IMG/VR virus record: IMGVR_UViG_3300031951_001321
Coordinates: 1 to 22,178 of that record
Reading direction: 5' to 3' (one strand)
Source of the DNA: a virus
Length of the DNA: 22,178 bases
In this document: piece after piece, positions 8,207 to 21,787 of the stretch
Numbering within the stretch: position 1 is the stretch's first letter
How the letters are laid out: each line of letters begins with the position of its first letter
Program-made: the position numbers and the translations under genes
Notes under the pieces: generated by a model
The model's input: the letters and a program-made list of their open reading frames with translations, nothing else
Database searches by the model: none
Told to the model about the DNA's origin: nothing

Positions 8207-9361
8207 TTATAAATTCCATTTAGTTGCTACTACATCAACCCCGTGATAATAATCTGAATTGTGTACAAAGATATTTCCCGAATTTGCGTTATAAACTCCC
8301 AATTCTGTTTTTGTCGATGAACCCAAATTAAATGAGTTTAAAACTCCACCAACTAAACTAATCAAAGCATTTGATTTCATAACGACATTAGTAGTTTTTA
8401 CAAATGAACTTTCTAATGTAATTGTCGAGTTATTTGTAATTACTGCAGTCGCCTCGTTATAGTTTAATTTTCTCAAAAGAAAATCGTCGCTTTCTGTATT
8501 TGCATCATTTGTCAAATAAACAAAAGTACCATCAGTATAGCAATAAGGCGAAAAATTATCTGCATCGCTAATCGTGTATGTTACCAATGTACCAGTAGAT
8601 AAATCACTCATATCAAACTGATAAAAAAAGTAGTTTTCGTTCGCATCCGAATAACAAAAACAAAGTAGTTTTCCTTTTAAAATAAAAGCATTCAAAACTA
8701 TAACAGTCGAATCGCTTACCTCTGTTTTAATAATCGTTTCAATGTAGTTAGCTGACGGAGTGTCGCTCATTAGTGTGCCATCTTCAAAATAATAAACCTT
8801 ACTACTATTGTTATACGCTATTGGCGTTCCTAAAGGCGTTTTAATTTCCGTAGGTTCAGCAGTCAAAGAATTAAGAGAATACGCTTTTACTCCCGTGGTA
8901 TCTAAAACCAAAACTAATTCATCATTAGCATTAAATCCCGTTGGACTTGTAAAATTATAAATTGGATTTGCTTCGCTTCCTTTGATTGTGTACGTCAAAG
9001 TATCGTTATAATTTTCCGATGCTTTGGCAAAGAAAACATATTTATTTGGCAATAGTGAAAACTTCAAATTTACACTCCAAACCGTTGCCGATAAACTTAA
9101 ACTTTGCTCAACATCATTTAATAGATTTGGTAGATTTCTAATGGCTTCTACTAATTGATAACCGCTTGTTTCGTTATCTTCGCCACCGTTAGGAGTTATT
9201 CCAGCTAAAGCCAAAATTTTATAACAATTTACTAATAAATCATTATAAATTTCTCTTACAACTGGAGTTCCATCTTCGGTATCCGTTTCATTTATAATTG
9301 CTCCAAATGGAAAATCGCTATTTACCTCTTTTGGTACTGATAATTGTTCTATTACTTTCAT
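8207..9361 (-). CDS. Tail fibre / receptor-binding protein 2
   Basis: A 384-residue protein. Residues 17-77 share a module with the preceding protein: about 29 of 61 residues agree by eye, including DGT, ITPN, DNET and GYQ. This module is probably the baseplate- or trimer-anchoring part. The rest differs completely. It has a beta-rich linker near 90-150, then repeated strands such as KVYYFEDGTLMSD, LKGKLLCFCYSDANENYFF, GTFVYLTNDANTES and FLLRKLNYNEATAVI, which look like blades of a propeller or a similar repeated beta fold. Cysteines in the LLCFCY segment are notable. No hydrolase motif is seen. Likely binds the host surface. Domain identity beyond the shared module is inferred from strand pattern only. 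Confidence 0.6.
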   Translation of the reverse strand: MKVIEQLSVPKEVNSDFPFGAIINETDTEDGTPVVREIYNDLLVNCYKILALAGITPNGGEDNETSGYQLVEAIRNLPNLLNDVEQSLSLSATVWSVNLKFSLLPNKYVFFAKASENYNDTLTYTIKGSEANPIYNFTSPTGFNANDELVLVLDTTGVKAYSLNSLTAEPTEIKTPLGTPIAYNNSSKVYYFEDGTLMSDTPSANYIETIIKTEVSDSTVIVLNAFILKGKLLCFCYSDANENYFFYQFDMSDLSTGTLVTYTISDADNFSPYCYTDGTFVYLTNDANTESDDFLLRKLNYNEATAVITNNSTITLESSFVKTTNVVMKSNALISLVGGVLNSFNLGSSTKTELGVYNANSGNIFVHNSDYYHGVDVVATKWNL

Positions 9362-9364
9362 AAC

Positions 9365-10417
9365 TTAATATTTTACTACTTCAATGTGTACTGTCAAATT
9401 TTGATTTTGCGAACCAATCTCCCGAATGCAAAAATCAAAAGTCGTTGCATTTATCGGTTTAAAAGTATATGATAATGCTCCGTTATCATTTGAAAAATTA
9501 GTCGAATTACTTTGTAAAAAAGCTCTAACGTAATAATTAGTATTTGTCATTGTATTTGCTAAAACAACTCTAACTACTGAGCTACTCGACGGCTTCTCTG
9601 TCAATGTTGCACTCACTAAATCACCTGCAACGGCAAATGTAGCTCCAATAGCACCGTTATTAATATCAATTCCACTAAACCTACCAACGTTACGAACTGG
9701 ATTTGCTCCCAATGCTGCTACAATTGCAAAATGTTCTTTTGGGTAAAGTCCATTTTGTAAAGCAGTAGCCAAATAACTACCACTATCCGCACCATTTACC
9801 CTACGAATAAAAGCCGTTAAATTGGTTAATGGTGTGGTGGCTACGTTATTTGCCGTTCCTGAATTTTCTTGACTTTGCGTTGCTGCTTTTAAATAATTCA
9901 AAGCACCTACAATAGCATCTAAATTAGATTGATCAGCAACTCTACGCAATTCAACTCCCGAAGCTGTTTTAATAAATTGGACATAGTCGCCACTATTGAA
10001 AGTAGAGACAACCGTTAAACCATAAACAGTAACATCTGCGCCTTTTATTTCGGTTTCAGTTGTAAAGTTAACCGATGCTTTACAAAGCATAGTTTCGCCC
10101 TCAAGTAAAAAGCTAATTTTGAACGGTACTTTTAATTTTCCACCTTCGGAACTTAAATTTTGAACGATGGTGTTTTTTGTAGATAACGCCCGTAAACCGT
10201 CAATAATTTGGTAGCCATTAGTTTCATTATCTGGGCTATTATTTGGCGTTATTCCGTACAATCTAAGCAATTTACTAATATTACTATGCAAGTCGCCATA
10301 AACTCGCTCATTTACTCCTGTACCGTCGCCACTTCCCGTATTGTCTTTAATACGCCCATCTGGATAATTTGCAATATCGGAATTATCTACGTTTGGATTT
10401 GAACTTAATATTCTCAT
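9365..10417 (-). CDS. Tail fibre / receptor-binding protein 1
   Basis: A 350-residue protein. Residues 18-78 are the same module as in the next gene (DGT, ITPN, DNET, GYQ conserved). The middle (95-160) is beta-rich with VTVYGLTVVSTFNSGDYVQF. It is followed by a helical linker with LDAIVGALNYLKAAT and a C-terminal beta domain (about 255-350) with ASATLTEKPSS-type strands, TNTNYYVRAFLQ and a final strand LTVHIEVVKY. Ending in a strand with charged Lys-Tyr is common in fibre tips. It directly follows the gp48-like baseplate gene, as fibre genes do in Mu (gene S position), which supports a tail fibre role. The host receptor is unknown. Confidence 0.6.
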   Translation of the reverse strand: MRILSSNPNVDNSDIANYPDGRIKDNTGSGDGTGVNERVYGDLHSNISKLLRLYGITPNNSPDNETNGYQIIDGLRALSTKNTIVQNLSSEGGKLKVPFKISFLLEGETMLCKASVNFTTETEIKGADVTVYGLTVVSTFNSGDYVQFIKTASGVELRRVADQSNLDAIVGALNYLKAATQSQENSGTANNVATTPLTNLTAFIRRVNGADSGSYLATALQNGLYPKEHFAIVAALGANPVRNVGRFSGIDINNGAIGATFAVAGDLVSATLTEKPSSSSVVRVVLANTMTNTNYYVRAFLQSNSTNFSNDNGALSYTFKPINATTFDFCIREIGSQNQNLTVHIEVVKY

Positions 10418-12851: not shown

Positions 12852-14735
12852 CTAAAATCCTAAAGTTGAACTTAAATTGACTGGCATTCCACTAAAATTG
12901 CTTTCGGTTGTAACTTGCTTTTTAGGATCATTAACATTAATATCTAAACGACCTTTAAATTTACCCGCTTCCGATTGTTGATTTTGCGCTTGTACTTCTT
13001 GAGGTGATTGTAAAACCTCTTTTTTGCTTCCAATAACATTACTCAAATCAGTAAACTCGTTTAATTTATCAAGTCCACTTTTAGCAGCTTCGCCAATCGA
13101 ACCTGGAATTAAAGAAACTAATTTTAAAACCGTTTTCAAAGGCATCAACATCCAGTTGATTATAGCTTGTCCAATATCCCTAAAAAAGTCAACAAAGCTA
13201 AATTCTTCAAAAAACGTTACAATTCCAGTCCACAAAGCACTAATGAAATTAGTAAACGTTTCCCATTGTTTGCTAAACCAAGCTACTATTTCATCCCAAT
13301 AAATAAATATTGCAATTATCGCTACAATAGCCGCTATAATTAAGAATATTGGAGATGTAGCAATAGCCATGGCAACACCAAAAGCGGTTGTAGCGGCTGT
13401 TGCCAACCAAGTACCAACAGTCATTAATATTTGCATTGTTTTGTAAGCTGCTAATGCTACTGTATTTTTACCTATTGCAATTGATGCCTTTCCTGTTGCT
13501 GCCCTATAAACACCCATAGCTATAGAAGATAAAAAAGTCCAAGTAGAACTAATAATCATAATAGTTTTTAATAAAGCCAAAAAACCAATTATAGAAATAA
13601 CTGATAAAACAACTAAATCAATATTGCTTGCTAAAAACCCTAAAGCTACTTTCGCTAAATTTAAACCCCCAATTGTCTGGTCATTTGTCGTTAAATAATT
13701 GGTAAAACTATCTTTTAATTGATTGATTTTTTCGCTTAACGTATTACTATTAATTTCCGCGGCTTTTTGCGCTTCACTTGTTCCCGTTACTCCTTTTGTG
13801 AACTCTTTGTAAGTATCAATATTAGCTAGTAATATTTTACCAGCAGTGATATTTTCAGCTCCAAATGTTTTTAAAATAAAAGTATCTTTTGCTCTTTGCG
13901 TAGTTAGTTTTTTAGTGATTTCGTTGGCATCTTCCAAAGCATCATTAATGCTAAATTGTCCGCTTTTATAACCTAAACCAGCTTTTTGTAATTGCAACGT
14001 TGCACCTCTTAACTTTGTTCCAGCTTCCGCACCAAATAAACTATATTTACCTAAAGTCTGTATTAATGCTTGAGATTGTTCTAATGTGATATTTGCACCT
14101 TTAGCAACCGAACCAAAGTTTTTATAGGCTTCCGCAGATTGTGTTATCGATGCTGCTCCCACCGCTTGACCAGCAGCTAAAACATTTATAACCCTATCCG
14201 CTTCTTTTGCTCCTAAGCTAAATTGGTTCATAATTCCGACTAGATTTTCAGTCGATGCTCCTAACTCATCTTTTGAAGCTCTTGAAAGCACAATTGAAGC
14301 CTTTGAAATTGCGGATATTCCGTCCGATGTTTCGGCAAATTTCGCATTTAAACCCGCAATTTTCTCATAACTCATTACCACATCGATAGTACTCTTTTTC
14401 GTTTCCTTTGCAACTTGATTTATCGATGCAGTATATTTGGCAAAGTCTTTATCAGATAAGTCGCTTACAATAGTCCTAAATGATGCAACGCCATCCTCGT
14501 AGGCTTTTAAATCAGTTATAGCACTTCCTAATATTGCGCCAAAACTTAAACCCAATAGTAATTGGGAAATATTACCCATTTTGTTAAATAAACCGTCGAT
14601 TTTAGTATTTACTCCACTTACTGCTGCTCCCGTAGTCTTTGTAAAAGTAGAAACGCCCGAAGTCATTTTACTGACAACGGACGTAAACTTATCGACAGCA
14701 GTAAAAACAGTAGGTATTTTCATTGTCGCTGCCAT
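12852..14735 (-). CDS. Tail tape measure protein (TP901 core type)
   Basis: A 627-residue protein. The N-terminal half (about 55-345) is the TP901-type tape measure core, with FRTIVSDLSD, VAKETKKSTIDVV, LSRASKDELGASTE, MNQFSLGAKEADRVINVLAAG and GAKANITLEQSQALIQTLG-like helices. Three or four hydrophobic segments follow: about 365-392, 398-412, 438-460 and 462-480 (SPIFLIIAAIVAIIAIFIYW). These are typical of tape measures that insert in the host membrane during DNA delivery. An amphipathic tail with Trp/Phe clusters lies at 485-535. It sets tail length: at the usual 0.15 nm per residue this would give a tail near 94 nm (inference). The ATG lies one base after the TAG that ends the frameshift extension of the chaperone. 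Confidence 0.87.
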   Translation of the reverse strand: MAATMKIPTVFTAVDKFTSVVSKMTSGVSTFTKTTGAAVSGVNTKIDGLFNKMGNISQLLLGLSFGAILGSAITDLKAYEDGVASFRTIVSDLSDKDFAKYTASINQVAKETKKSTIDVVMSYEKIAGLNAKFAETSDGISAISKASIVLSRASKDELGASTENLVGIMNQFSLGAKEADRVINVLAAGQAVGAASITQSAEAYKNFGSVAKGANITLEQSQALIQTLGKYSLFGAEAGTKLRGATLQLQKAGLGYKSGQFSINDALEDANEITKKLTTQRAKDTFILKTFGAENITAGKILLANIDTYKEFTKGVTGTSEAQKAAEINSNTLSEKINQLKDSFTNYLTTNDQTIGGLNLAKVALGFLASNIDLVVLSVISIIGFLALLKTIMIISSTWTFLSSIAMGVYRAATGKASIAIGKNTVALAAYKTMQILMTVGTWLATAATTAFGVAMAIATSPIFLIIAAIVAIIAIFIYWDEIVAWFSKQWETFTNFISALWTGIVTFFEEFSFVDFFRDIGQAIINWMLMPLKTVLKLVSLIPGSIGEAAKSGLDKLNEFTDLSNVIGSKKEVLQSPQEVQAQNQQSEAGKFKGRLDINVNDPKKQVTTESNFSGMPVNLSSTLGF

Positions 14736-14736
14736 G

Positions 14737-14910
14737 CTACTTAATTTTTGAATTTTTAATAATTTCTTTTAATCTTTCATACCAATACACTAATCCATGA
14801 AAATCAATATCATCACAATACATATTTGATATAGTTTTAGGTGTCCAATGATAATAGTCAACAACGGATTTAATAACATTATCGACATCGTTAATTGTCC
14901 ACCTTACATA
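14737..14910 (-). CDS. Frameshift extension of the tail assembly chaperone (gpT-like)
   Basis: A reading frame -1 to the chaperone ORF. It is entered at a run of five T (14914-14910) just before the chaperone ATG-TAA end and stays open for 57 codons to a TAG at 14737-14739. Its product starts YVRWTINDVDN and ends KNSKIK, with the central segment DDIDFHGLVYWYERLKE. This resembles the C-terminal extensions of other phages' frameshifted chaperones. The first ATG in the frame comes 29 codons in, so independent translation of a useful protein is unlikely. A slipped fusion would be 194 residues. The extension exactly fills the gap before the tape measure, whose start is one base after its stop. In the lambda system the extension recruits the tail tube protein to the tape measure. 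Confidence 0.75.
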   Translation of the reverse strand, partial: YVRWTINDVDNVIKSVVDYYHWTPKTISNMYCDDIDFHGLVYWYERLKEIIKNSKIK

Positions 14911-15320
14911 AAAACAGCACTCAACTGCTGTATAACGTCGTAATCTTCACGCTCGAATTTATCCAATTCAGCAGTAGTACATCCGATAACGTGAGCAATT
15001 AAAATTAAAGCATATTTTGCCGTTTGCTTTTGTAAATCCAATCCGCTTGCTAAATCCGCTTTTGCATTTGGCTTAACTCTTGTTTTGAAATTTACAACCG
15101 ACCTCGAAATCTCGCCACTATCATTTTTAATTGGATGCACCAATGTATAAGTAGGTACAAATTCTGAATTGATTTCTAAGTTTCCACTCATAATAGCTTC
15201 CAAAATATCCAAATACTCGTCCGCTAGTTTGTCATCTGAAACGGGTTTTTTTACCCATTTATGAATAAACTTTTTTAATTCCGCTAGTGCGTTTTCTTCG
15301 CTAATTTTTACTTCTTTCAT
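14904..15320 (-). CDS. Tail assembly chaperone (Mu gp41 / lambda gpG-like)
   Basis: A 138-residue, helix-rich protein between tube and tape measure, the classic position of the chaperone. It begins MKEVKISEENALAELKKFIHKW, has a strand region PTYTLVHPIKN and NFKTRVK at about 59-84, and ends with a helical DLQKQTAKYALILIAHVIGCT and DYDVIQQLSAVFM. It coats the tape measure during tail assembly and is absent from the mature virion. A fraction of ribosomes should slip at the T5 run near 14914-14910 to make a longer fusion. The stop TAA immediately follows one codon after the slip site. No recognisable domain was used beyond gene order, size and the frameshift architecture. Confidence 0.75.
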   Translation of the reverse strand: MKEVKISEENALAELKKFIHKWVKKPVSDDKLADEYLDILEAIMSGNLEINSEFVPTYTLVHPIKNDSGEISRSVVNFKTRVKPNAKADLASGLDLQKQTAKYALILIAHVIGCTTAELDKFEREDYDVIQQLSAVFM

Positions 15321-15350
15321 TTTTATTGTTTTTGAGGTTTAATAATTGAT

Positions 15351-15758
15351 TTAGATTTTTTCTAATTTTCCACCGCCCGAAACTTTCAAAGTCATAGTTC
15401 CAGCATTAGTGTCATATTGTTGGTCGCCAACTGGTCGCCCTGTACCTTTGTAAACCGCTCCAGTTATCAAACTAAACGTCCAAACTCCATCATCTGGATG
15501 CGACGACAAAGCATCTAAGGTTTTCATTTCGTTATCGCTTACAGTATCAACTGCAACAACTCCCTCAACTGACCATCTTACTCGATTTAGTTGTGGCATA
15601 TTTTGACCGTTTGACGTTACTTGATTCGCATCGTCATTGGCTCTAATTCCACCCCTATCAATTGTGAAACTTTCATTTGATTTTGGAAAAAAGCGAAACT
15701 CTCCCGTTGTGTGTTGGCATACGATTTCATCAACGTCGCCAAATATAAAATTTGCCAT
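15351..15758 (-). CDS. Tail tube protein, Mu gpM-like
   Basis: A 135-residue, beta-rich protein directly after the sheath gene, where the tube gene lies in contractile-tailed phages. Strands visible include GEFRFFPKSNESFTIDRGG (19-37), NRVRWSVEGVVAVD (58-71), GVWTFSLITGAVYKGTG (91-107) and TMTLKVSGGGKLEKI at the end. The GTGRPVGD turn followed by D-x-N-x-x-T-M-x-L-K-V-S-G-G is the pattern of Mu-type tube proteins (gpM-like), which stack as hexamers in the tail. Starts with ANFIFGDVDEI, containing a candidate outer loop. Distances to sheath and chaperone genes are small (19 and 30 bases), consistent with high co-expression. Confidence 0.82.
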   Translation of the reverse strand: MANFIFGDVDEIVCQHTTGEFRFFPKSNESFTIDRGGIRANDDANQVTSNGQNMPQLNRVRWSVEGVVAVDTVSDNEMKTLDALSSHPDDGVWTFSLITGAVYKGTGRPVGDQQYDTNAGTMTLKVSGGGKLEKI

Positions 15759-21725: not shown

Positions 21726-21787
21726 CTCAACTAATCAAATAAAAACCTCAAAACAATAAAAAAGATTATCACTTCAAAACTACAAAT

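Follow-up and report, generated by a model that had tools for sequence, protein, structure and literature searches.

Bacteriophage lambda produces two forms of its tail chaperone, G and GT, by slipping on the canonical heptamer GGGAAAG. Two-form chaperones arising from slippage are already known in other phages as well as in lambda (Levin, 1993; Xu, 2004, 2013, as cited in PMC5009743), and the tail chaperone of phage Mu uses a -2 frameshift (Xu, 2004; Baranov, 2006, as cited in PMC5009743). A further system is found in arteriviruses (PRRSV), which have a eukaryotic host and genes unrelated to those of these phages, and where an RG-GUU-UUU site in nsp2 directs -2/-1 frameshifting (PMC11818727, PMC4937337). 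Among described phage motifs, those of PRFect were derived by inspecting annotated SEA-PHAGES genes; by motif name, GG-UUUUU would correspond to "twofive" and the U5 run of the window to "five", and the main text of that paper makes no mention of Flavobacterium, Cellulophaga or Bacteroidota (PMC10885494). A literature search judged by titles and abstracts likewise found no tail-chaperone frameshift described in Flavobacterium or Cellulophaga phages.

The chaperone gene and its -1 frame extension

The window, that is, the whole 22,178-nt stretch of DNA analysed here, is a virus record of 22 kb with a Mu-like contractile tail module (PF04865, weak PF10076). This module includes matches to sheath (phrog_165) and baseplate wedge (phrog_180), a profile match to Baseplate_J, and a sub-threshold match to Mu gp48. 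Judging from the relatives of the window, the host is probably a member of the Bacteroidota. On the minus strand, the gene order is tail tube (15351..15758; phrog_4699, E 2e-51), chaperone (14904..15320; 138 aa; phrog_4648, E 2e-33), extension (14740..14910; 57 codons; phrog_5697, E 2e-19) and tape measure (12852..14735; phrog_28, E 3e-45; PF10145, E 4e-15), the last being the presumed client of the chaperone. This is the order of the lambda G/GT region, with two overlapping reading frames between the tail tube and tape measure genes, and a low-level fusion carrying a short C-terminal domain, predicted here from sequence, would be a second point of likeness.

An earlier note on this DNA had proposed that the chaperone ends GCT GTT TTT ATG TAA and that slippage on the T5 run at 14914-14910 opens a 57-codon -1 frame. 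Both statements agree to the base with the minus-strand reading frame 15320-14904: the 0-frame stop TAA (14904..14906) is the second codon 3' of the slip codon, the -1 frame opens 40 nt 5' of this stop, and it runs to a TAG (14737..14739) that lies, as the note had also said, one base ahead of the tape-measure ATG at 14735. The computed length of the predicted fusion (137 + 57 = 194 aa) reproduces the noted one. The extension contains, in order, the motifs R-W ... H-W-x-P ... CDD-D ... YWY. From the opening of the -1 frame to the conserved RW motif, the window has no ATG, GTG or TTG; the conserved part of the extension therefore cannot come from a standalone start.

The AlphaFold2 model of the chaperone is confident (pLDDT 94), and its fold matches in BFVD are annotated tail or tape-measure chaperones with a probability of 0.98-0.99 but an E-value of 0.05-0.09, the best named viral matches being the tape measure chaperone of Burkholderia phage Mica and two tail assembly chaperones. 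Pfam Phage_TAC_7 (PF10109, "E, or 41 or 14"), to which the chaperone is weakly similar as a further likeness to Mu, scores 15.2 bits in the window against a gathering threshold of 25, and is matched at E<=0.01 by 4/61 family members (best 2e-4). The model of the extension is weak (pLDDT 70), and sequence and fold searches of the PDB gave no meaningful match for either the chaperone or the extension. Gene order and fold matches together support a G/GT role for the chaperone.

The extension matches 86 phage records (tblastn, E 1e-15 to 4e-9), the chaperone is also found in 86, and both searches return 79 Flavobacterium and 7 Cellulophaga phages; no plasmid match to the chaperone was found. All 60 aligned members of the extension family match phrog_5697. 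Further loci were added from viral-contig scans and one genome scan, bringing the loci with an upstream chaperone to 234, many of them overlapping, which represent 90 distinct junctions. A slip-compatible Phe codon, meaning TTT or TTC within a U-run and able to re-pair in the extension frame, is present in 90/90 distinct junctions. Frame-interrupted homologues, which the earlier note had named beforehand as evidence against its proposal, were sought, and 0/234 chaperone-bearing loci lacked a slip-compatible site. On this comparison, the -1 frame extension is not due to chance, because both parts are conserved in 86 isolate phages and every distinct junction is slip-compatible. A decayed gene or a sequencing error is refuted by the open layout kept in the 86 isolate records and in dozens of independent contigs, none of them frame-interrupted, and its probability is negligible.

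Annotation of the extension varies. In Cellulophaga phage phiSM and Flavobacterium phage VK58, a reading frame over it is listed as a separate hypothetical protein, whereas it is absent from the annotation of FL-1, FCL-2 and FCOV-F56; the description of the extension as unannotated in the earlier note therefore applies to part of the records, while a fusion is annotated in none of the five examined. The phiSM and VK58 entries are in line with an extension that is a separate gene, translated either from an independent start or by ribosomes that re-initiate at the stop of the chaperone. Such a gene is nevertheless highly implausible, given that ATG, GTG or TTG precedes the conserved motif in the extension frame in 17/90 distinct junctions and is missing in 73/90, as it is in the window, and that conservation begins right at the slip site with nearly fixed spacing to it. 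The annotation of the 86 phage records could be revised to show a single fusion gene. In two loci from Flavobacterium columnare phages (L005 and L006, 2095-2135), an inverted repeat followed by a T-run lies between the extension and the tape measure gene; this element is absent from the window, where the two abut.

The slip site at the junction

The slip site of the window, U GUU UUU (14910..14916, minus strand), does not have the canonical heptamer X-XXY-YYZ, in which both the P-site and A-site tRNAs re-pair. When the ribosome slips by -1, the Phe codon TTT at 14912-14910 can pair again on TTT, and the earlier remark that only this codon re-pairs is right for the window. With U-GUU-UUU, the P-site tRNA-Val cannot re-pair well, which counts against a frameshift. 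Across the family, junctions fall into four classes: A, the class of the window (NTT TTT ATR TAA), B (GTT TTT TAR), C (GTT TTT TCR TAR) and D, which is distant and has mostly U7-U9 or TTT TTC. The slip position is set by an Asp 11 codons upstream in 84/90 junctions.

Codon choice at the site is strongly biased. Where Val precedes the slip codon, it is encoded by GTT in 52/52 cases, compared with 18/45 for nearby Val codons and a background of 0.48 (Fisher p 2e-12 for slip-preceding against nearby Val, in sequences that are related to one another). The base 5' of NTT TTT is G in 36/53 distinct -1 junctions, where codon usage predicts 7.1, and TCG supplies this G 26 times, though it makes up only 7% of Ser codons. 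The family consensus is thus G-GUU-UUU, a known slip core, from which the window departs in having U in place of the G; the non-canonical character seen earlier holds for the window, and this consensus is to be added to it. The GUU-UUU core with a 5' G is shared with the arterivirus site, while lambda differs in its GGGAAAG site. Partial re-pairing of GGU in the P site was considered as the reason for the G before GUU and found insufficient, as CUU lineages keep the G too.

The 0-frame stop lies one or two codons after the slip codon in 60/63 junctions. In six loci (L024, L156, L229, L233, L234 and L236), it lies 5-6 codons 3' of the slip codon, so the family can do without a stop next to the slip site. 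In the window, a small hairpin, CAGCA/UGCUG (14915-14930, minus strand), adjoins the slip site on its 5' side.

An upstream stimulator of the dnaX type was rejected: Shine-Dalgarno-like sequence about 9-14 nt upstream occurs in 7/90 junctions, with no excess over the control windows (7-9/90 in three of the four and 29/90 in the fourth). Ribosomes of this host class occlude the anti-Shine-Dalgarno sequence (PMC8710568), so a stimulator of this type would be expected to work poorly, and the phage family seems to rely on the U-run and a hairpin.

The downstream hairpin and the proposed mechanism

A conserved RNA hairpin that the earlier note did not contain lies 3' of the slip site (14839..14904, minus strand; MFE -21.8 kcal/mol) and is the predicted frameshift stimulator. 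Its outer arms in the window, AGGUG (14904-14900) and CACCU (14843-14839), coincide with the codons of R-W (AGG TGG) and W-x-P (TGG ACA CCT). In most class A-C relatives, the hairpin spans about 65 nt and starts 5-6 nt after the slip codon, which places a 3' structure within the usual spacer of 5-9 nt between slip site and stimulator (PMC5009743), although its stimulating action is a prediction. The N-GUU-UUU site with an obvious 3' hairpin sets the window family apart from lambda, and its position and nature differ from those of the arterivirus stimulator, in which a protein complex acts on a C-rich element roughly 10 nt 3' of the site.

Stability was compared with 500 synonymous recodings of each of 44 sequences. 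The hairpin of the window is more stable than its recodings (z -3.31, p 0.004), as are those of 32/44 sequences (p<=0.05; mean z -2.75). Under a within-gene permutation null, the mean z was -2.20 and the window reached p 0.036, and away from the hairpin, in both genes, the class A-C mean z stayed between about 0.5 and -0.6. RNAalifold returned no consensus fold for the full 42-sequence alignment, probably because of indels and shifted stem registers, and was replaced by per-sequence folds, the synonymous null and a register test on indel-free sequences. In 20 indel-free relatives, 63% of positions along the full span pair in the register i+j=75, compared with 31-50% in every other register tried. 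Twenty chosen pairs were paired in 77.3% of cells against 29-60% when slid, a figure that is favoured upward because the pairs were picked on those same sequences. The same 20 pairs showed 19 double-change cells against 8.9 when shuffled (0/500), indicating covariation. The shared register is confined to the indel-free subset, and class D hairpins differ.

The conserved extension, slip site and 3' hairpin strongly support the G/GT-type frameshift put forward in the earlier note. Very probably, a -1 programmed ribosomal frameshift of the lambda G/GT type on N-GUU-UUU makes two forms of the chaperone in this virus, and slippage on a U-run ahead of the hairpin does so in its Flavobacterium and Cellulophaga relatives too. 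Most ribosomes would stop at the TAA and release the 138-aa G form, and a minority would pause at the hairpin (14904-14839) while decoding GUU UUU. In these, tRNA-Phe would move back by one U within the U5 run, and reading would go on in the -1 frame to give the 194-aa GT form, which ends in the 57-aa C-terminal domain. The analogy with lambda (PMC5009743) suggests that the G part may coat the tape measure and that the extension may recruit tail tube subunits. The ribosomal nature of the slippage, its efficiency and these roles of the two proteins are presumed.

Slippage of RNA polymerase, adding or dropping a U on the T-run so that mixed mRNAs encode both proteins, would be an alternative source of the two forms. 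It would suit the class D relatives, whose runs, mostly T7-T9, are of plausible length, and the occurrence of both alternative frames in the family. However, in the window and in 28 further distinct -1 junctions the run is no longer than T5, a length that is short for known bacterial transcriptional slippage, and selection on codon phase (GTT TTT), on the preceding G and on the spacer to the hairpin fits ribosomal slippage better. Transcriptional slippage is therefore considered very unlikely, and in the long-U class D, too, slippage would presumably be ribosomal.

Frame changes among relatives and neighbouring features

The -1 shift holds for the window but is not universal in the family. Nine of the 90 distinct junctions, including that of isolate phage FL-1, enter the extension in the +1/-2 frame. 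Their site, nearly identical to that of the -1 junctions, is RTT TTT TCR TAR with one exception, L245 (GTT TTT TTA TAG). Of the rows in the 42-sequence alignment, 7/7 odd-frame ones lack one base between slip site and extension, and none of the -1 rows does. The tree needs three frame changes, two of them forced by well-supported branches, and the slip size of the cassette seems to have switched repeatedly during evolution, at least 2-3 times.

These odd-frame junctions fit -2 slippage, as used by Mu, with the downstream coding core 1 nt closer. A +1 shift in the nine relatives is possible but doubtful. The run in all of them is T6 or T7, which also allows TTT to re-pair after a forward move of one base, and +1 is very probably the shift used by the haloarchaeal myovirus HSTV-2 (PMC5009743). 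Against this, the distance from the slip codon to the tryptophan of H-W-x-P is 21 codons if the shift is -2, as in 6/7 sister -1 phages, whereas a +1 reading gives 20 codons in all seven odd-frame relatives scored. Furthermore, all odd-frame relatives keep NTT before TTT, which is needed for -2 and not for +1, and -1 and -2 share slip sites in vitro (PMC7618472, PMC4937337). A single-base deletion read by -2 keeps the 21-codon distance automatically, so this distance supports -2 over +1 without proving it.

On balance, the evidence leans slightly towards a single GUU UUU and hairpin cassette that serves both -1 and -2, as one site does in arteriviruses, with a 1-nt change switching the frame while the fusion is kept, and with the switch repeated. 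Frameshifting by -2 is reported to work best with spacers 1-2 nt shorter than those favouring -1 (PMC7618472), with a similar pattern for PRRSV (PMC4937337). A shorter slip-to-hairpin spacer in the -2 relatives was considered and rejected: the conserved coding core is 1 nt closer, but most of the predicted stem bases in this group still begin 5-7 nt 3' of the slip codon, so that agreement with the tension model is suggestive only. Closely related phages that differ by a -1/-2 switch form matched natural pairs for testing the control of slip size in bacteria, and if one cassette supports both shifts, they would let the spacer/tension model be tested in bacteria on naturally occurring sequences.

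Two further features were observed in the window. In the tail region, the proteins encoded at 8207-9361 and 9365-10417 (minus strand) adjoin and share 36% N-terminal identity over 162 aa (E 4e-21); neither has a Pfam match, and the pair is an apparent tandem duplication. Just 5' of the chaperone ATG lies a short leader, AACCTCAAAA(A)CAATAAAAA (15317-15351, minus strand), which could be an A-rich initiation leader or part of a promoter. It recurs on the opposite strand at about 21.74 kb (21733-21765, plus strand), with 86% identity over about 35 nt.
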